Source: Blautia sp.
Lineage (GTDB): Bacteria; Bacillota; Clostridia; Lachnospirales; Lachnospiraceae
DNA length: 14,695 nt
Assembly: GCA_017420455.1 (NCBI GenBank)
Contig: JAFOJB010000051.1
Location: 1 to 14,695, forward strand
Direction of reading: 5' to 3'
Below, one piece after another: positions 5,784 to 14,695 of this stretch. Both the position numbers and the translations under genes were made by a program. The notes under the pieces were generated by a model. The model was not told where the DNA came from, did not search any database, and worked only from the letters and a program-made list of their open reading frames with translations. How positions within the stretch are numbered: the first letter of the stretch is position 1; each line of letters opens with the position of its first letter.

Positions 5784-7177
5784 AGCTGGTATTTGAAAGA
5801 AGCGCAGAAGGCAGGGGAACCAGATATCTGCCGGAATGTGATGTCCCTGAAAGACTTCCGGCAGCAGCCCTTCGGGAAAAGCCTCTTCGGCTGCCGGAAC
5901 TGCCGGAGACGGAGGTGGACAGGCATTATACCTGTCTTGCCGGGCAGACCCACGGCGTGAACGACGGGTTCTATCCGCTGGGCTCCTGTACCATGAAATA
6001 TAATCCCCAGATCAATGAAAAGATGGCTTCCCTTCCGGGATTCGTAAATATCCATCCTCTTCAGGACAAAGAGTCCATGAAGGGGTGCCGGGAAGTGACA
6101 GAAAAACTGGAACAGCTCCTGTGCGAGATCACCGGGATGGATGCCATGACCCTTCAGCCCGCAGCCGGTGCCCACGGGGAATTCACGGGGCTTCTTGTGA
6201 TCAAGGCGTATCACAGGTCACGAAACGACACCGGACGTACAAAGATCATCGTGCCGGATTCCGCCCATGGGACCAACCCCGCCAGCGCGGCCATGGCAGG
6301 CTTCGATGTGGTGAGTATTCCTTCGGACGATCATGGATGCGTGGATCTTGACGCCCTGCGGGAAGCCGCAAAGGAGGATACCGCGGGACTGATGCTGACC
6401 AATCCCAATACCGTAGGCCTGTTTGATCCGAATATCCTGGAGATCACACGGATCGTCCATGAAGCCGGAGGTCTTTGCTACTATGACGGTGCCAACCTGA
6501 ACGCCATCATGGGCATTGCCCGTCCGGGAGATATGGGCTTCGATGTGGTTCATGTAAATCTTCACAAAACCTTTTCCACCCCGCACGGGGGAGGCGGCCC
6601 GGGCAGCGGTCCCAGCGGCTGCAAGAGTTTTCTGGCTCCCTTCCTTCCGGGGAAGGATTCCCCGCAGAGCATCGGGAATGTCCGCTCCTTCGGCGGAAAT
6701 TTCCTGGTGGAGGTGAAAGCGCTGGCCTATATCCTGACCCTGGGCCGGGAGGGAATCCCGGAGGCGGCCCGGAACGCGGTCCTGAACGCCAACTATATGC
6801 GGGTGAAGCTTGCGGATATCTATCCCATGGCTTACGATACCATCTGTATGCATGAATTTGTCATGTCTCTGGAAAAGCTGAAGCATGAAACCGGCGTCTC
6901 TGCGCTGGACGTGGCGAAGGCCATGCTGGATTACGGGATCCATCCGCCGACCATGTATTTCCCGCTGATCGTCCACGAGGCTCTGATGGTGGAGCCTACG
7001 GAGACGGAAACACGGGAGACCCTGGATGAAGCCATCCGGATCTACAGGGAGATCCATGAGAAGGCGGTGAAGGATCCGGAAGGAATGCACAGACTTCCTC
7101 TCCATACCCCGGTCCGGAGGCTTGACGAGGTGACAGCGGCAAGGAATCCGGTGATCCGATATGATTTCGACGCTTAG
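5780..7177 (+). CDS. gcvPB: Glycine dehydrogenase (decarboxylating) subunit 2
   Basis: This is the PLP-binding half of the P protein, 465 residues. The Schiff-base lysine is K263 in NLHKTFSTPHGGGGPG. Other family blocks are FYPLGSCTMKYNPQINE, LQPAAGAHGEFTGLL, PDSAHGTNPASAAMAGF and YYDGANLNAIMG. The frame is open from 5582, but the start is the ATG at 5780, with GGAGG (5765-5769) 10 bases upstream and overlapping the gcvPA stop. Its own 3' end overlaps lplA by 17 bases. The protein works as an alpha2-beta2-type assembly with GcvPA. Confidence 0.96.
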   Translation: MKLVFERSAEGRGTRYLPECDVPERLPAAALREKPLRLPELPETEVDRHYTCLAGQTHGVNDGFYPLGSCTMKYNPQINEKMASLPGFVNIHPLQDKESMKGCREVTEKLEQLLCEITGMDAMTLQPAAGAHGEFTGLLVIKAYHRSRNDTGRTKIIVPDSAHGTNPASAAMAGFDVVSIPSDDHGCVDLDALREAAKEDTAGLMLTNPNTVGLFDPNILEITRIVHEAGGLCYYDGANLNAIMGIARPGDMGFDVVHVNLHKTFSTPHGGGGPGSGPSGCKSFLAPFLPGKDSPQSIGNVRSFGGNFLVEVKALAYILTLGREGIPEAARNAVLNANYMRVKLADIYPMAYDTICMHEFVMSLEKLKHETGVSALDVAKAMLDYGIHPPTMYFPLIVHEALMVEPTETETRETLDEAIRIYREIHEKAVKDPEGMHRLPLHTPVRRLDEVTAARNPVIRYDFDA

Positions 7178-8336: not shown

Positions 8337-9881
8337 ATGCGGGCATATGATCTGGTAGTGATCGGCGGAGGTCCGGGAGGCTATGAGGCGGCTCTGGAGG
8401 CAGCCGGCAGCTATGGAATGCGGACAGCTCTGGTGGAAAAGGAAGCGCTTGGCGGAACATGCCTGAACCACGGCTGCATTCCCACAAAGACGCTGCTGCA
8501 TTCAGCGGAGCTTTACCGGCAGATGAAGGAATGCGCGCTCTTCGGCCTTCGGGCGGAAAATCCTGCTTATGATATAGAAAGGATACAGGATAGAAAGGAA
8601 GAGGTCCTCACCCGGCTTCGCGGCGGCATCGCGGCCATGATGAAGCAGAAAAAGGTGGAGGTAATACAAGGAACGGGACGGATCCGGGATGGACATACCG
8701 TGGAGGTGTTTTCTGCAGACAGGGAAGAAACGGGCTTCGCAGCGGAGCCGGGGGAAGCTCCTCATTGTACGGGACGGGAGAGCGCAAGAATCCTGGATAC
8801 GGAGAATATCCTGATCGCCACAGGTTCCAGGGCTTTTATACCGCCCATAAAAGGCGCGGATCTTCCGAATGTGGTGACCAGCGACGAGCTGCTGGAAAAA
8901 AGGGATGGCCTGTATCAGCGGCTTACCATCATCGGAGGCGGCGTCATAGGCATGGAATTTGCGGGCATTTACAGTGATTTCGGCGCAAAGGTCACCGTAG
9001 TCGAAGCCCTGGAACGTATTATCGCCAACATGGACAGGGAGCTTTCCCAGAGCCTTAAGATGCTGCTGAAAAAGCGGGGAGTCGAGGTCATTACCGGAGC
9101 TTCGGTAAAGGAGATCCGGCAGGAAGAGGATGGGAGTCTGGTCTGTATTTATGCAGAGGAAGGAAAGAAACCTGCCGGCAGCAGCCTGAGCGCGGAGGAA
9201 AAAAAGAGCTCTGGCAGCAGCCTGAGTACGGGGGAGGAAAAAAGGAATTCCGGCAGCAGTCCCGGCGCAGCAGAGGAGAACGGAAAAAGAGTGGTTTCGG
9301 ACGGTATCCTGGTGTGCGTAGGGAGGAGGCCCTGTACAGACGGCCTTTTCGGCCCCGGTTTTACGGTGGACATGGAAAAGGGCCGGATCCTGACGGACGA
9401 ACATTTTCAGACCTCTGTTCCGGGAGTGTATGCCATCGGAGACGTCACGGGAGGCGTAATGCTGGCACATGCGGCGTCGGCCATGGGAAAGAACGCGGTG
9501 GCGGCGATGAACGGGAAGGATCCGGAATTCTGCATGACGGCCGTCCCGGGCTGCATCTATACGGAGCCGGAGATCGCCTCCGTGGGACTGACGACGGAGA
9601 TGGCAAAAGAGCAGGGGATTCCGGCCGAAAGCAAAAAAATCGTGATGACTGCCAATGGAAGGACGGTCCTCTGCGGGGGAGAGAGAGGCTTCATCAAGGT
9701 GGTATCCGAGAAGGATACCGGACGGATCCTTGGCGCTTCTATGATGTGTGAAAGAGCATCCGATCTGATCAGCGAATTCACCGACGCCATAGTGCATGGC
9801 CGTACCCTCCGGGAACTCGCCGAGGTGATACGTCCGCATCCTACCTTTTCCGAGGCCATTACAGAGGCGGTGAAGAGGTAA
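8337..9881 (+). CDS. lpdA: Dihydrolipoyl dehydrogenase (L protein) with low-complexity insertions
   Basis: Lpd (EC 1.8.1.4) reoxidises dihydrolipoyl-GcvH with FAD and NAD+. It shows the N-terminal FAD fold (VVIGGGPGGYEAAL), the redox disulfide GGTCLNHGCIPTKTLL (C42, C47), the NAD-binding GGGVIGMEFAG (200-210), AIGDVTGG, and the C-terminal catalytic His-Glu pair in HPTFSE (H501, E506). There is no N-terminal lipoyl domain. At 514 residues it is some 45-50 longer than usual. A Ser/Gly/Glu/Lys-rich repeat fills the loop at about 274-318, and a second extra stretch lies at about 127-150. GGAGG (8326-8330) sits 6 bases before ATG. It is the last gene of the operon, followed by a terminator. Confidence 0.94.
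   Translation: MRAYDLVVIGGGPGGYEAALEAAGSYGMRTALVEKEALGGTCLNHGCIPTKTLLHSAELYRQMKECALFGLRAENPAYDIERIQDRKEEVLTRLRGGIAAMMKQKKVEVIQGTGRIRDGHTVEVFSADREETGFAAEPGEAPHCTGRESARILDTENILIATGSRAFIPPIKGADLPNVVTSDELLEKRDGLYQRLTIIGGGVIGMEFAGIYSDFGAKVTVVEALERIIANMDRELSQSLKMLLKKRGVEVITGASVKEIRQEEDGSLVCIYAEEGKKPAGSSLSAEEKKSSGSSLSTGEEKRNSGSSPGAAEENGKRVVSDGILVCVGRRPCTDGLFGPGFTVDMEKGRILTDEHFQTSVPGVYAIGDVTGGVMLAHAASAMGKNAVAAMNGKDPEFCMTAVPGCIYTEPEIASVGLTTEMAKEQGIPAESKKIVMTANGRTVLCGGERGFIKVVSEKDTGRILGASMMCERASDLISEFTDAIVHGRTLRELAEVIRPHPTFSEAITEAVKR
9177..9290 (+). repeat. In-frame tandem repeat inside lpdA (three 36-39-base units)
   Basis: Units start at 9177, 9213 and 9252, each with GGCAGCAG(C/T)C, and encode GSSLSAEEKKSS, GSSLSTGEEKRNS and GSSPGAAEENGKR. 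Units 1 and 2 are close copies at the DNA level (GGCAGCAGCCTGAG in both); unit 3 has diverged. All spacings are multiples of three, so the frame is kept. Confidence 0.85.
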
Positions 9882-9896
9882 ACTCCATCCGGCTGT

Positions 9897-9942
9897 AAAA
9901 GGGCTTCTGGATCCTGATGGTTCCAGAGGCTCTTTTGTTTTG
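9897..9942 (+). terminator. Intrinsic terminator of the gcv operon
   Basis: A 15-base arm (9897-9911) pairs with 9922-9936 (TCCAGAGGCTCTTTT), with two G-U pairs, around a 10-base loop. The run TTTTGTTTT follows, 16 bases after the lpdA stop. It separates the operon from the DUF815 gene. Confidence 0.85.
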
Positions 9943-9995
9943 TCTGGCTTTAGCCGTGAAGTCTGTTCCCCTGCCGGTGATAATGAAAAACAGCA

Positions 9996-10024
9996 TTGTC
10001 ACCAGAAAACCCGCATGATAAAAT
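9996..10024 (+). promoter_or_regulatory. Promoter of the AAA+ ATPase gene
   Basis: TTGTCA (9996-10001) and TAAAAT (10019-10024) are separated by exactly 17 bases. Initiation near 10031 gives a leader of about 60 bases. The AT-rich tract after the -10 supports promoter character. Confidence 0.6.
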
Positions 10025-10092
10025 AAAAAAATAACTTCCAGCGCAGAAGACTGGCGTAAAGGAAAAAAACGGAAATAAACGGGGGAGAGAAA

Positions 10093-11424
10093 ATGTATCA
10101 GGAAATATCACAGCTGCTTATGTACGGTGATCTGGAGGAATCCAGCATTTTATACAGGTTTGGTGCGGCGATGGCGAAGCTGGAAGACCCTGCCTGCAAA
10201 AAGACCGAGATCGTGAAGGAAATCCACGCCATCTCGAAGCGTCTTCTGATGCTTGCCACGGATTATGGGTTCGATGAAAACCTGTGGCACAACTACCTTG
10301 CTTTTTATATCATCATGAATGAAAACCCTTTTTCTCTGGTGAACGAGCACAGCGATGTACGGGAGGGAACTGTAAATACCCTGGTAAAGGAGGATTTTTC
10401 CATCCTCCGCTCCCTTTTTTACTATGATTTCACCGCTCTGGAGGAAAAACTGGGGATCCGCTGTTTCTCTCTGTTCTCCCATTACCAGGCTGTACAGAAA
10501 AATAAACAGATGTACAACCAGAATGTCAGCGAAAAGGTGCGCTCCCTTTCCAGAGCGCTGGAGAACGCTGAAGATGACAGGGAATTCTTCCAGGTGATCA
10601 CCAGCTTTTACAAGGCCTTTGGCGTGGGAATGTTCGGCCTGAACAAAGCCTTCCGTATCAACGAGCACGCCCAGGGAGAGGTAGAGTTCGTACCCATCAA
10701 CAACATGGAGCAGGTCGTTCTTTCCGACCTGATCGGCTACGAAACCCAGAAACGGAAGCTGATCGAGAATACGGAAGCCTTTGTAAAGGGAAAGAAGGCA
10801 AACAATGTCCTTCTTTTCGGAGACAGCGGCACCGGAAAATCCACCAGCATCAAGGCCATTGTGAACCAGTACTATGACCAGGGACTCCGGATGATCGAGA
10901 TCTACAAACATCAGTTCAAAAATCTTTCCACCGTCATCGCGGCCATCAAGAACCGGAATTACAAATTCATCATCTACATGGACGACCTTTCCTTCGAGGA
11001 GCATGAGATCGAATACAAATTCCTGAAGGCCGTCATCGAAGGCGGCGTGGAGACAAAGCCGGACAATATCCTGATCTACGCCACCTCCAACCGCCGCCAC
11101 CTGATCCGGGAAACCTGGAATGACCGGAACGACCAGGACAATCTGGACGACAAGCATCATTCCGACACCGTGGAGGAGAAGCTTTCCCTGGTGAACCGTT
11201 TCGGTGTGACCATCAATTACAACAAACCGGCGCCAAAAGAATACGCGGATATCGTAAAGGAGCTGGCAAGGAGGAACGGCATCTCCATGCCGGAGGAGGA
11301 ACTGGTAGCCGAGGCCCGCAGATGGGAGATGGCCCACGGAGGCATCTCCGGCAGGACCGCACAGCAGTTGATCAATTATCTTCTTTATCACCTGGAGGTA
11401 GAAAACACGGGCATCGACGAATGA
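10093..11424 (+). CDS. AAA+ ATP-binding protein of the DUF815 type
   Basis: This 443-residue protein has a helical N-terminal half (about 1-200) and a AAA+ ATPase module. Walker A is GDSGTGKST (243-251, K249), Walker B is IIYMDD (293-298), a sensor-1 Asn lies in YATSNRRH (N333), and an arginine-finger candidate is R369 in SLVNRFG. A C-terminal lid-like helical region follows, with GGISGRTAQQLINYLL near the end. DUF815 proteins are widespread predicted ATPases of unknown role. GGGGGAG (10081-10087) precedes the ATG. It has its own promoter and sits alone between two terminated or promoter-bounded operons, so context does not suggest a pathway. Confidence 0.88.
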   Translation: MYQEISQLLMYGDLEESSILYRFGAAMAKLEDPACKKTEIVKEIHAISKRLLMLATDYGFDENLWHNYLAFYIIMNENPFSLVNEHSDVREGTVNTLVKEDFSILRSLFYYDFTALEEKLGIRCFSLFSHYQAVQKNKQMYNQNVSEKVRSLSRALENAEDDREFFQVITSFYKAFGVGMFGLNKAFRINEHAQGEVEFVPINNMEQVVLSDLIGYETQKRKLIENTEAFVKGKKANNVLLFGDSGTGKSTSIKAIVNQYYDQGLRMIEIYKHQFKNLSTVIAAIKNRNYKFIIYMDDLSFEEHEIEYKFLKAVIEGGVETKPDNILIYATSNRRHLIRETWNDRNDQDNLDDKHHSDTVEEKLSLVNRFGVTINYNKPAPKEYADIVKELARRNGISMPEEELVAEARRWEMAHGGISGRTAQQLINYLLYHLEVENTGIDE

Positions 11425-11600
11425 CGGCGCTGCGTGCCAGTGGTACGCGTTTAGCGCATGACCGAGCCGGAAGGCGAGACCAACGCAGTCTGGGCGAATT
11501 TAGACGCGCCAGATGTAAAGGTTTTTTAAGGTGAAGCGAAGAGATGGGCGAGGCCGTGAACTGCAACCTCTTAAACTATAGTTAGAACACATGGACGATC
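11425..11600 (+). other. Unexplained structured intergenic segment; possible small RNA or small ORFs
   Basis: No gene is convincing here. The sequence folds into CTGCGT/ACGCAG (11430-11435/11483-11488) stacked on TGGT/ACCA (11441-11444/11479-11482). These enclose GCG-TTTAG-CGC (11447-11457) and GCC-GGAA-GGC, whose loop is a GNRA tetraloop. A hairpin TCTGGGCG...CGCGCCAGA (11489-11513) and a looser stem TTAAG/CTTAA follow. Three small ORFs overlap it: 37 codons from an ATG at 11421 (overlapping the upstream stop, Arg-rich), 23 codons at 11458-11529 (MTEPEGETNAVWANLDAPDV...), and 13 codons from 11544. Each is open, but none has a good ribosome-binding site except perhaps the last. T6 at 11522-11527 is too far from a stem to be a standard terminator. 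Confidence 0.4.
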
Positions 11601-11607
11601 ATCGGCG

Positions 11608-11635
11608 TTGACAAACTTTGGAAGAAAGTTATACA
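11608..11635 (+). promoter_or_regulatory. Promoter of the membrane protein/P-type ATPase operon, with dyad in spacer
   Basis: A perfect -35, TTGACA (11608-11613), is followed after 16 bases by TATACA (11630-11635). The spacer contains AACTTT (11614-11619) and AAAGTT (11625-11630), exact reverse complements 5 bases apart, a plausible repressor site. It is about 130 bases upstream of the first gene, and nothing else recognisable lies between. Confidence 0.55.
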
Positions 11636-11765
11636 ATTACAACAAACCGAGAACTGCCGAAGATCAGGACATTCTCATACTGTCGACAGCTCATGGAATG
11701 CTTGGGATTGAAACAGGTATTTCTGGATCAATCCTTACGCCAGAATGGCAGAAAGGGAGATAACT

Positions 11766-12095
11766 ATGGTAAAAGACTGGAACTGGAAGAAAATCGGATT
11801 ATTTGCAGGTGGAGTTCTTTTGGGAAGCTATGGGGTGAAGATACTGAAGAGCAAGGATGCGAAAAAAGCCTACACCCATGCCGCGGCAGCAGTGCTTCGG
11901 ATGAAGGATGAGGTACAGAAGGATTTTACCACGCTTCGGGAAAACATCGATGATATCCAGGCGGAGGCAGGGGACATCAACGAGAAACGCCGCCAGGATT
12001 ATGAAGCACAGGCAATTGAAGACGCGAAGGCGCTTCTGGCAGAAGCGGAGGAAGCCGGCGCAGAGGAATGCGGGATTGAGGGGAAGGAAATATGA
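11766..12095 (+). CDS. Small single-pass membrane protein, DUF6110-like, paired with a P-type ATPase
   Basis: This 109-residue protein begins MVKDWNWKKIGLFAGGVLLG. One membrane segment (about 9-27) carries glycine-zipper spacing (G11, G15, G16, G20, G23). A long amphipathic, charged helix follows (about 30-95), then an acidic tail with a single cysteine (C102). The start is ATG 11766, preceded by AAGGGAG (11752-11758); an in-frame ATG at 11745 lacks such a site. Its stop overlaps the ATPase start (ATGA), so the two are probably made together. I recall DUF6110 proteins beside heavy-metal P-type ATPases in Bacillota. The layout also resembles mycobacterial PacL (DUF1490) proteins that scaffold Ctp ATPases. 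A metal-pump accessory role is inference. Confidence 0.8.
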   Translation: MVKDWNWKKIGLFAGGVLLGSYGVKILKSKDAKKAYTHAAAAVLRMKDEVQKDFTTLRENIDDIQAEAGDINEKRRQDYEAQAIEDAKALLAEAEEAGAEECGIEGKEI

Positions 12096-14182
12096 GGTGC
12101 AGGATCCTGCATGAATCCAGAGGACGCATGCGCGTTCATATCTGCAAGGCATATATGACCTGCAGCCAGGCAGATATTCTGGAGGCCTGGCTTCTGGGCT
12201 TTCCAGGTATCCGGGAAGCAAGGGTCGATGAACGTACGGGAAATGCCGCCATACGCTATGAAGGGAAGGCCAGGAGCAGCATATTGTCTGCCCTGGCCGG
12301 GTTTCATTTTGAAACCACTGAAATAACCGTCCCGGAGCACAGTCAGAGAGCATTGAACCGGAAATATGAAGATAAGATGTTCTTCCATGTGGCAAAGAGG
12401 CTGGTCTCCCGGTTTTTGCTTCCGCTCCCCCTCCGAAGGATCCGCACCGTCGTAAAGGCGGTTCCCTATCTGTACCGGGCGGCGCGTTCTCTTGCCGGGG
12501 GAAAGCTGGATGTCTCTGTTCTGGATGCGGCTTCTGTTTCTGTCTCCATGCTGCGCGGGGAATTTAATACCGCCGGATCCATTATGTTCCTGCTGGGGAT
12601 CGGAGATATCATGGAGGAATGGACGCACAAAAAATCCATGGAGGACCTGGCAAGTGTCATGTCGCTGAACGTGGACAAGGTGTGGGTGAAAACACCGGAG
12701 GGCGGGGAAGTCCTTCTGGGAGTGGACAAGGTGAAGGAGGGCGACCAGATCGTGGTGCGTACCGGGAACATGATCCCGCTGGACGGCATGGTTTGCCTGG
12801 GAGACGCCATGGTGAATCAGGCCTCTATCACCGGAGAACCGCTTTCGGTCCATAAGAAACCGGGCGCCTTGATCTATGCAGGGACCGTGGTAGAGGAAGG
12901 TGAGATCACCGTGACCGTCCGCGAGGAAAAGGGAAGCGGCCGGTATGACAGGATCATTGCCATGATCGAGGAATCGGAAAAGCTGAAATCCAGCTCGGAG
13001 GCCAGGGCGGCTCACCTGGCGGACAGGCTGGTGCCCTGGACTCTGGGAGCTACGCTCCTGACCTGGGCGCTCACCGGGAATGCAGCCAGGGCAGCCTCTA
13101 TTCTGATGGTGGATTTCTGCTGCGCCTTGAAACTTTCCATGCCGATATCGGTGCTTTCCGCCATGCGGGAGGCCGGAACCCACCATATTTCTGTCAAGGG
13201 AGGAAAGTTTCTGGAAAATTACGCAGAGGCTTCTGCCATTGTATTTGACAAGACAGGAACCCTTACCAACGCTTCTCCCAGAGTAAAGGCTGTGATCCCC
13301 TTTGGAAATGAGGACGAGGAGGAGCTGCTCCGTCTGGCAGCCTGCCTGGAGGAGCATTATCCCCATTCCATTGCCAACGCGGTGGTAAATGAAGCTGGAA
13401 AAAGAGGGCTTTCCCATGAAGAAAAGCATTCCAGGGTGGAATATATCGTAGCGCATGGAATCGCCAGCAGCGTGGACGGCAGGCAGATCCGTCTGGGAAG
13501 CTACCATTTTGTGTTTGAAGACGAAGAAAGCAGGATTCCGGAAGGAGAGAAGGGGAAATTTGAAAGACTTCCGGATGAATACTCCCATCTTTATATGGCA
13601 GTCGACGGAAAGCTCGCGGCTGTTATTCTCATCGAGGATCCCCTTCGGGAGGAGGCTTCTTCGGTGATCAGACAGCTCCACAGCCTGGGGATCGACCGGG
13701 TAGTGATGATGACCGGGGACAGTGAACGTACTGCGAGAGCTGTCGCAAAGCTTACCGGCGTGGACCAGTATTATTCCGAGGTCCTGCCGGAGCAGAAGGC
13801 AGCCTTTATCCGGGCGGAGCATGAGGCCGGAAGAAAGGTTATTATGGTGGGAGACGGGATTAACGATTCTCCGGCCCTTTCCGAATCCGATGCGGGCGTC
13901 GCCATCAACAGCGGAGCGGCTATCGCACGGGAGATCGCAGATATTATCATTTCGGAGGATGACCTTCATTCCCTGGTGACCATGCGGCTTCTGAGTGAGG
14001 GTCTGATGGAACGGATCAGAAAGAATTACAGGACGATCCTTTCCTTCAATTCCTTCCTGATCCTGATGGGAGTGCTGGGGTTCTTTCCTTCTGCAGTCAC
14101 GGCGCTTCTGCACAATGCCTCCACCATCGCCATAAGTCTTCACAGCATGACAAATCTGCTGCCGGAAGACAGACGGGCGTAG
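12092..14182 (+). CDS. P1B-like heavy-metal P-type ATPase with atypical membrane motif
   Basis: This 696-residue ATP-driven cation pump has an N-terminal HMA-like ferredoxin fold (about 1-75) that lacks CxxC, with only C18 and C24 near the expected loop. The actuator domain has ITGEP (246-250), the phosphorylated aspartate is D386 in DKTGTLT, and TGD (541-543) and VGDGIND (586-592) complete the P domain. The nucleotide domain has HYPHSIA (423-429) in place of the usual SEHP. In the metal-site helix, where most P1B pumps have CPC, this one reads DFCCALKLSMP (341-351). The last helices contain LLHNASTIAISL. The first membrane helices are weakly hydrophobic. The metal cannot be assigned from this motif. 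It starts at ATG 12092 with AAGGA upstream, overlapping the DUF6110-like gene. Confidence 0.9.
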   Translation: MRCRILHESRGRMRVHICKAYMTCSQADILEAWLLGFPGIREARVDERTGNAAIRYEGKARSSILSALAGFHFETTEITVPEHSQRALNRKYEDKMFFHVAKRLVSRFLLPLPLRRIRTVVKAVPYLYRAARSLAGGKLDVSVLDAASVSVSMLRGEFNTAGSIMFLLGIGDIMEEWTHKKSMEDLASVMSLNVDKVWVKTPEGGEVLLGVDKVKEGDQIVVRTGNMIPLDGMVCLGDAMVNQASITGEPLSVHKKPGALIYAGTVVEEGEITVTVREEKGSGRYDRIIAMIEESEKLKSSSEARAAHLADRLVPWTLGATLLTWALTGNAARAASILMVDFCCALKLSMPISVLSAMREAGTHHISVKGGKFLENYAEASAIVFDKTGTLTNASPRVKAVIPFGNEDEEELLRLAACLEEHYPHSIANAVVNEAGKRGLSHEEKHSRVEYIVAHGIASSVDGRQIRLGSYHFVFEDEESRIPEGEKGKFERLPDEYSHLYMAVDGKLAAVILIEDPLREEASSVIRQLHSLGIDRVVMMTGDSERTARAVAKLTGVDQYYSEVLPEQKAAFIRAEHEAGRKVIMVGDGINDSPALSESDAGVAINSGAAIAREIADIIISEDDLHSLVTMRLLSEGLMERIRKNYRTILSFNSFLILMGVLGFFPSAVTALLHNASTIAISLHSMTNLLPEDRRA

Positions 14183-14195
14183 ATCACGGACAAAG

Positions 14196-14306
14196 ATGAC
14201 AGAGCTGATGCTGCTGGAAGAGGCGGAACGGTGCGTTGCGGAACCGGTTTCTGAACGGACTGTGCCAGAGAGAAAAACATACGGTGATAGAAGAAAAAGG
14301 AGATGA
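14196..14306 (+). CDS. Possible 36-codon ORF between the two ATPase-like genes
   Basis: ATG at 14196 opens a 36-residue frame, beginning MTELMLLEEAERCVAEPVSE and ending in a basic tail rich in Arg and Lys. It stops at TGA 14304-14306, inside the next gene's ribosome-binding region (AAGGAGATGA). It fills most of the 133-base gap and has one cysteine. There is only a weak GGA upstream and I know no homologue, so this may be chance or an untranslated spacer. Confidence 0.25.
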   Translation: MTELMLLEEAERCVAEPVSERTVPERKTYGDRRKRR

Positions 14307-14315
14307 AAAAAAGGG

Positions 14316-14695
14316 ATGAAATACCGGATCCTGGAAGAAAGCAGAAGAAGAATCCGCATTCATCTGTATGCCGGCAAGCTTGATGAAGCGCAGGCGGAAA
14401 TTCTGGAATATGCCTTTTCCGGGATTCCCGGGGTGAAAAAGGTGACCGTCTACAGAGCTACGGGAAACTGTGCGCTGGAGTACGATGGAAGAAGAGAGGC
14501 GGTGATCTCCCGGCTGGATGCTTTTCATTATCAGAATGTCAGAGTGTTTGCCAGGGAGACAGAGTCCCGCATTGACGAGGAAGAGATGACGAGAAGAAAG
14601 CTGTCTCCGCAGCTGAAGCGAAAGCTCCGGATCCGGGTTGCGCTGGAGACGGCGGCTGACATGATGCTGCCTGTGCCCATGCAGCTTGCATATCA
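14316..14695 (+). CDS. N-terminus of a second HMA-domain/P-type ATPase-like protein (partial, runs off right edge)
   Basis: The frame is open from ATG 14316 to the window end, giving 126 residues. It starts MKYRILEESRRRIRIHLYAG and matches the first ATPase block by block: RIL.ES.RR.R.H at the start, ILE..F.GIPG, TGNCALEYDG against TGNAAIRYEG, then a charged linker and LPVPM against LPLPL just before the first membrane region. It also lacks CxxC, and even the two loop cysteines of its neighbour. It is most likely a second P-type ATPase made by tandem duplication; an HMA-only protein cannot be excluded. AAGGAG (14297-14302) is 13 bases upstream, a long spacing, with AAGGG nearer. Confidence 0.8.
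   Translation, partial: MKYRILEESRRRIRIHLYAGKLDEAQAEILEYAFSGIPGVKKVTVYRATGNCALEYDGRREAVISRLDAFHYQNVRVFARETESRIDEEEMTRRKLSPQLKRKLRIRVALETAADMMLPVPMQLAY

Follow-up and report, generated by a model that had tools for sequence, protein, structure and literature searches.

What is the role of a small protein with a glycine-rich membrane helix whose gene overlaps that of an atypical P-type ATPase in a Blautia sp., and does the pair represent a Bacillota counterpart of the mycobacterial PacL/Ctp system, as the earlier note proposed? The window analysed here (14,695 bases) is one whole contig of a draft assembly that is broken into 593 contigs and 77.9% complete, and all features located in it below lie on the forward strand. 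Judging from the genes, the pair is probably FezA-FezB, the core of a ferrosome iron-storage system, here in a gut-dwelling member of the Lachnospiraceae.

The small protein is encoded at 11766..12095 (109 aa), with a ribosome-binding-like AGGGAG site 5' of the start; an alternative longer in-frame ORF from 11745 has 116 aa. Its gene, referred to here as fezA-like, shares a stop/start ATGA (12092..12095, read from the sequence) with the fezB-like ATPase gene (12092..14182, 696 aa), and the coordinates, lengths and overlap given in the earlier note proved exact. Pfam assigns the small protein to DUF6110 (PF19605) with 96.2 bits and an E value of 1.2e-27, the curated cut-off being 26 bits. A sigma-70-type promoter-like site, TTGACA-18-TACAAT (11608..11637), ends 128 bases 5' of the fezA-like gene; it was identified solely by its match to the consensus at 11 of 12 positions, and the searched region contains three such sites against a mean of 2.0 in shuffles. 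Between the upstream gene and the fezA-like gene lies a dispersed repeat of about 107 bases (11425-11531), present full-length or partially at 19 further places in the same genome with an 80-98% match (20 of 95 candidates scored). The folding of a 183-base stretch at this repeat is little better than that of shuffles (z -0.47), and an Rfam search of 9800-14695 for a riboswitch gave three matches, all far below gathering scores.

AlphaFold2 predicts a short helix at residues 7-26 (11784..11843) and a single long helix at residues 30-99 (11853..12062), followed by a short acidic tail (mean pLDDT 71), in agreement with the long helix that had been anticipated after the membrane segment. The N-terminal segment carries glycines at positions 11, 15/16, 20 and 23, and in an alignment of the window's protein with 39 relatives chosen from 69 listed, all 40 rows have a GxxxG within the first 40 residues. 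The glycine helix is thereby upheld, with the qualification that its hydrophobicity is weak, the Kyte-Doolittle profile over 19 residues peaking at 1.33. All 40 rows have a tail of net acidic charge. A cysteine, of which the window's protein has one in this tail, occurs there in just 13 rows and is therefore not a family feature; two or more tail Cys/His residues are found in four. The tail of the window's protein, with one Cys and no His, contains no metal-binding motif, and a search of solved structures returned no relative of this protein (best E 0.12).

The fezB-like gene encodes a P1B-type heavy-metal ATPase (TIGR01525, E 2.9e-143). Its N-terminal HMA-like domain (approximately residues 1-70, 12092..12301) has a GRMR motif and lacks CxxC, TM4 reads DFCCALKL (residues 341-348, 13112..13135) where CopA and CadA types carry CPC, the phosphorylation motif is DKTGT (13247..13261) and TM6 contains HN (residues 674-675, 14111..14116); the absence of CPC and CxxC together with the HN pair justifies the description of this pump as atypical. 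The AlphaFold2 model of the ATPase has an N-terminal HMA-like fold and eight membrane-type helices, as read from the helix list (pLDDT 78), and both profile and model match known P-type pumps in the PDB, P1B pumps for copper, cadmium and zinc ranking near the top. The P1B6 class is defined in part by the absence of CPC, and the primary ferrosome papers reportedly call FezB a P1B-6 ATPase. HN is given as a P1B6 feature in the available text of PMC9374683, and the window's ATPase combines HN in TM6 with a TM4 free of CPC. Wherever the regions are present, the ATPases linked to DUF6110 in the survey described below share TM4 [ML]VD[FY][SC]CA, DKTGT and TM6 HN; two Deinococcus pumps have LVDISC in TM4.

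How constant is this gene arrangement? DUF6110 matches at E 0.001 were collected from 100 genomes of the family and 291 of the class, the window's genome being in both sets, and were found in 37 family genomes (36 over the Pfam cut-off) and 19 class genomes (15 over the cut-off). The resulting survey of 58 places, which includes the window's pair and a second pair of its own genome, was combined with 80 named loci (the best 80 of at least 535 relatives), giving 134 distinct loci after removal of four duplicates (L149, L173, L206 and L208). An ATPase ORF comes next on the same strand at 56 of the 58 survey places and at all of the named loci (the best 80 of at least 535), and thus directly follows DUF6110 in 132 of the 134 distinct loci. 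The pairing is not due to chance, DUF6110 members do not lie mostly away from P-type ATPases, and the view of DUF6110 as a pump-partner family gains firm ground. The two exceptions are a contig that ends just past DUF6110 (L072) and an orphan DUF6110 gene (L101) in a genome where a different copy does have an ATPase beside it (L102). At a further locus just an ATPase end fragment is found (L090), three ATPases are cut by contig ends (L060, L094 and L100), and three are split across more than one frame (L139, L142 and L188). The distance to the ATPase is within 500 bases in 79 of the named loci (the best 80 of at least 535), C. difficile CD160 having 582, and the exact 4-base overlap of the window is uncommon (8/126 loci measured). 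No fused FezA-FezB protein was noticed in passing among the ATPase ORFs of the survey and named loci. The second pair of the window's genome is divergent, and its ATPase is cut by a contig end.

A characterised relative of the pair was found in Clostridioides difficile. Three records of that name (CD160, CD10-165 and HC132) have DUF6110 followed by an ATPase, and the small protein in one of them (L132) matches Pfam DUF6110 at E 5e-24. DUF6110 occurs in six of 71 genomes of a family taken as Peptostreptococcaceae, all six in one genus, taken as Clostridioides; the three C. difficile genomes and two more of the same inferred genus each contain a single close ATPase, 93-100% identical to the query, with any further match no nearer than 29-31%. 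According to the published text, as far as it was available, C. difficile fezAB is CD630_05910-05920, encoding the membrane protein FezA and the transporter FezB, both required for ferrosomes and both repressed by Fur. From gene order and uniqueness, we infer that the DUF6110-ATPase pair of the C. difficile records is this fezAB locus. In CD160 (L131), a long AT-rich repeated stretch lies between the fezA-like and fezB-like genes (6366-6930), and in the other two records (L132 and L133) the ATPase ORF begins 133 and 45 bases past the DUF6110 match. In a tree of 45 ATPases, the 31 linked to DUF6110, among them those of the window and of C. difficile, form one clade (support 100/99); its nearest neighbours, each on a long branch, are a fez-like pump of Vibrio and a pump of Deinococcus. 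The window thus encodes a DUF6110-type membrane protein together with an ATPase that falls in the same clade as C. difficile FezB.

Across much of the family, the pair resides in an iron-related context. Among the 134 distinct loci, which include the best 80 of at least 535 named relatives, fur is located near DUF6110 in 43, always on the same strand and at a median of 651 bases upstream, and further neighbours are feoB (33), dtxR (29), feoA (21 and 10, in two clusters), DUF3793 (19), a small FeoB-associated-like protein (18), flavodoxin (17) and DUF2325 (12); a generic ABC-transporter cluster, present in 39, is nearly as common as fur. Pfam confirmed Fur, FeoA, FeoB, DtxR, DUF3793 and DUF2325 on single proteins of L242 and L243, and the ABC, flavodoxin and FeoB-associated labels were assigned by eye. 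Of 41 survey windows of at least 14 kb, 14 contained feoA or feoB, compared to one of the 40 controls, which were 15-kb windows on the same contigs (P 3e-4); the control match is 30% identical, and one survey window depends on a 29%-identical FeoB match; for any of feoA, feoB, fur and dtxR the counts are 18/41 and 2/40. Two relatives of the same genus display the gene order feoA-feoB-fur-fezA-fezB, one of them with dtxR before fezA. No feo, fur or dtxR match is found in 36 of the 58 survey loci and 34 of the named loci (the best 80 of at least 535), some of these loci being short, nor does the window have such a neighbour. DUF3793, DUF2325, the flavodoxin-like and the small FeoB-associated-like proteins recur near fezAB and feoAB (e.g. 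L063 and L134) and may be iron-starvation genes.

The upstream regions point in the same direction. We scanned the 131 regions of at least 150 bases (the named loci again being the best 80 of at least 535) alongside 394 control ORF upstream regions, requiring at least 11 of 14 positions for the Fur consensus, and found it in 42 of the 131 compared to 14 of the controls (P 5e-17). The PerR consensus is also enriched in this set (32/131 compared to 34/394, P 1e-5), so the regulator belongs to the Fur family and is not surely Fur itself, and the Zur consensus is not enriched (1/131 compared to 6/394). The operator TGATAAANTTTATCA occurs in 58 of these 131 regions and 13 of the 394 controls; it was derived from the same loci, and the prior Fur consensus is therefore the fair test. 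In the window's own upstream region the best Fur-type site reaches 10/14, and none is recognisable.

Other classes of P1B ATPase are capable of iron export, and the pump type and iron context described above would also suit a simple Fe(II) exporter acting against iron excess, with the DUF6110 protein as a stabilising subunit and no organelle in the window's species, a reading in keeping with evidence that consists of genes and includes no vesicles. The requirement of C. difficile fezA and fezB for ferrosomes and their repression by Fur, as reported in the partly available sources, argue against it: genes repressed by Fur would be expressed during starvation, a timing that fits storage more readily than export, and we consider the simple exporter rather doubtful. 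On the preferred reading as a ferrosome-type FezA-FezB pair, the substrate, direction of transport, clustering and organelle formation can be envisaged as follows. FezB, an iron(II)-type P1B6 ATPase, would carry iron from the cytosol through a membrane once starvation has ended and iron is available again, the most likely destination being iron stores enclosed by membrane. FezA would reside in the same membrane by means of its glycine-rich helix, through which it may also self-associate, and its long cytosolic helix would hold and cluster FezB, thereby concentrating the pumps in one membrane patch or vesicle. The adjoining HMA-like protein described below probably has an accessory role, binding or regulating FezA or FezB.

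In order to relate the pair to PacL, we turned to profile comparisons between DUF6110 and DUF1490, the latter represented by nine proteins from plasmids of Rhodococcus, Pseudonocardia and Mycobacterium (L212 was left out). A group A of 19 DUF6110 proteins matches a short-tailed Clostridia subgroup of 11 at E 8.2e-19, and the subgroup in turn matches DUF1490 at E 5.7e-7 to 2.9e-6 with a score of 38.4, the best of 200 column shuffles reaching 18.5 (E 0.0075). At a loose limit of E 1, 10 of the 11 subgroup proteins match Pfam DUF1490 (best 8.5e-7) and all 11 match DUF6110. The direct match of group A to DUF1490 is weak (E 0.005-0.007, probability 5-7%), and its score of 20.3 is barely above the best shuffle (18.8), so the homology claim depends on the short-tailed subgroup. 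The C. difficile relatives match Pfam DUF1490 at E 0.06-0.1, below the cut-off, and the window's protein does not match it at E 0.1. These weak and missing direct matches would be expected if the likeness were a convergence of two helical proteins rich in Ala, Glu and Lys, which the bridging subgroup, tied to both families, renders very improbable. DUF6110 and DUF1490 most likely form one superfamily, in which PacL and FezA appear as branches of a single pump-partner family. The relationship suspected in the earlier note is thus recovered by way of the subgroup and is already in print: the available text of PMC9374683 describes DUF6110 as related to DUF1490, without a predicted metal-binding motif, mainly from Firmicutes and typically encoded with P1B6 pumps, and that of PMC13043812 terms DUF6110 proteins PacL-like. 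The observation itself is confirmed, and most of it was known before. The helix of the window's family has a conserved K8 and G16, G20 and G23 with the spacing GxxxGxxG, and PacL has GxxG. The six DUF1490-linked ATPases in our tree are not one group (three changes are needed), carry CPC or SPC and fall with other CPC/SPC-type pumps. We rejected a sister relation of the DUF6110- and DUF1490-linked pumps because of this scatter, and partner and pump therefore did not simply co-descend. On a Mycobacterium avium plasmid (L215, 2514-4251), a DUF1490 gene lies between an ABC ATPase gene and fetB, which encodes an ABC permease for iron export, and the 5.4 kb inspected carry no annotation of a P-type ATPase; this PacL is possibly paired with another pump class.

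Homology to PacL raises the possibility that DUF6110 scaffolds a plasma-membrane pump exporting zinc, cadmium or another toxic metal. According to the available text of PMC9374683, zinc resistance with CtpC depends on PacL1, and the authors propose platforms for DUF6110; that of PMC13043812 states that PacL2 requires K9 and G17/G20 for normal cluster formation. Such an efflux platform is nevertheless difficult to reconcile with a tail devoid of a metal-binding motif, with a pump of the SC/CC...HN type in place of CPC, with iron-type neighbours and operators in the absence of Zur enrichment, and with a characterised relative, FezA-FezB, that stores iron; we judge it quite improbable. The proposed Bacillota counterpart of PacL/Ctp accordingly holds as a homologous pump-partner system and is not supported as a counterpart in zinc or cadmium efflux.

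The fezA-like and fezB-like genes of the window are followed by a stand-alone HMA-like gene (14316..14693) that runs off the contig, so that 126 of its about 137 aa are present, and whose product resembles the ATPase N-terminal domain (26-34% identity). We had taken the open frame from 14316 for the beginning of another P-type ATPase and dropped this idea upon finding counterparts in four genomes of the same genus, which are separate proteins of about 137 aa (54-58% identical). In these genomes (L238-L241) the gene precedes fezA-fezB, and a 53% relative also sits before fezA in L091. The protein is rare, occurring in 3 of the 58 survey loci and 1 of the named loci (the best 80 of at least 535), the window's own included, and the matches among these in L072 and L188 seem to be pieces of an ATPase start; it is thereby marked as a clade-specific addition. 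We regard it as a candidate third component.

PacL, in mycobacterial effluxosomes, and FezA, in ferrosomes, may form one ancient pump-clustering family that employs a shared helix-zipper scaffold to build an export patch or an iron vesicle, with a stand-alone copy of the pump N-terminus as an overlooked third member in some Lachnospiraceae; we hold the arguments for and against this picture to be evenly balanced. Our literature search, which was partial, found no paper joining PacL1 or DUF6110 with the ferrosome or FezB, though one may exist beyond its coverage, and, within the same coverage, no explanation of FezA's role in ferrosome formation. What the analysis usefully adds is a link between the literature on PacL and that on ferrosomes, together with the designation of the window's genes as a fez pair to which a third component may belong. 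As the clustering residues of PacL are mapped, the tie can be tested directly on the lysine and glycines conserved in the helix of FezA. With DUF6110 in 37 of 100 family genomes (36 over the cut-off), we further predict that many commensal Lachnospiraceae store iron in the manner of ferrosomes; the available text of a 2025 review (PMC12574912) lists the presence of ferrosomes in commensals among the open questions.

Three known systems can be compared with the window. An operon without annotation on a plasmid of Vibrio sp. THAF190c (L118, 6286-10049) encodes an HMA_2 protein that stands alone, a protein of 241 aa whose start is rich in His, Met and Pro, two small proteins of membrane type and an SC...HN ATPase. 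Six-gene fez operons were reportedly described by Grant in 2022, and we take the Vibrio operon to resemble these. Like the window, it has a small membrane protein gene overlapping the ATPase gene by 4 bases and a stand-alone HMA_2; unlike the window, it has more genes, and Pfam does not assign its small protein to DUF6110. This protein gives a weak YtxH match (E 0.008) and E 0.0086 with the group A profile, too weak to call it a DUF6110 relative. Mycobacterial PacL, encoded with CtpC, CtpG or CtpV, shares with the window a small protein, composed of a membrane helix and a long Ala/Glu-rich portion, encoded just before a P1B ATPase, as well as distant profile homology to DUF6110. It differs in that the window's protein has no metal-binding tail and its pump carries SC/CC and not CPC, and the context of the DUF6110 family is iron, not zinc, cadmium or copper. 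Compared to C. difficile FezA-FezB, the window lacks a detectable Fur box and has the extra stand-alone HMA-like protein, the FezA-like proteins are 33-35% identical, and the tail, about 60 aa in C. difficile, is shorter in the window; in both, a DUF6110 protein is encoded directly before the same type of ATPase, and the two ATPases belong to one clade.
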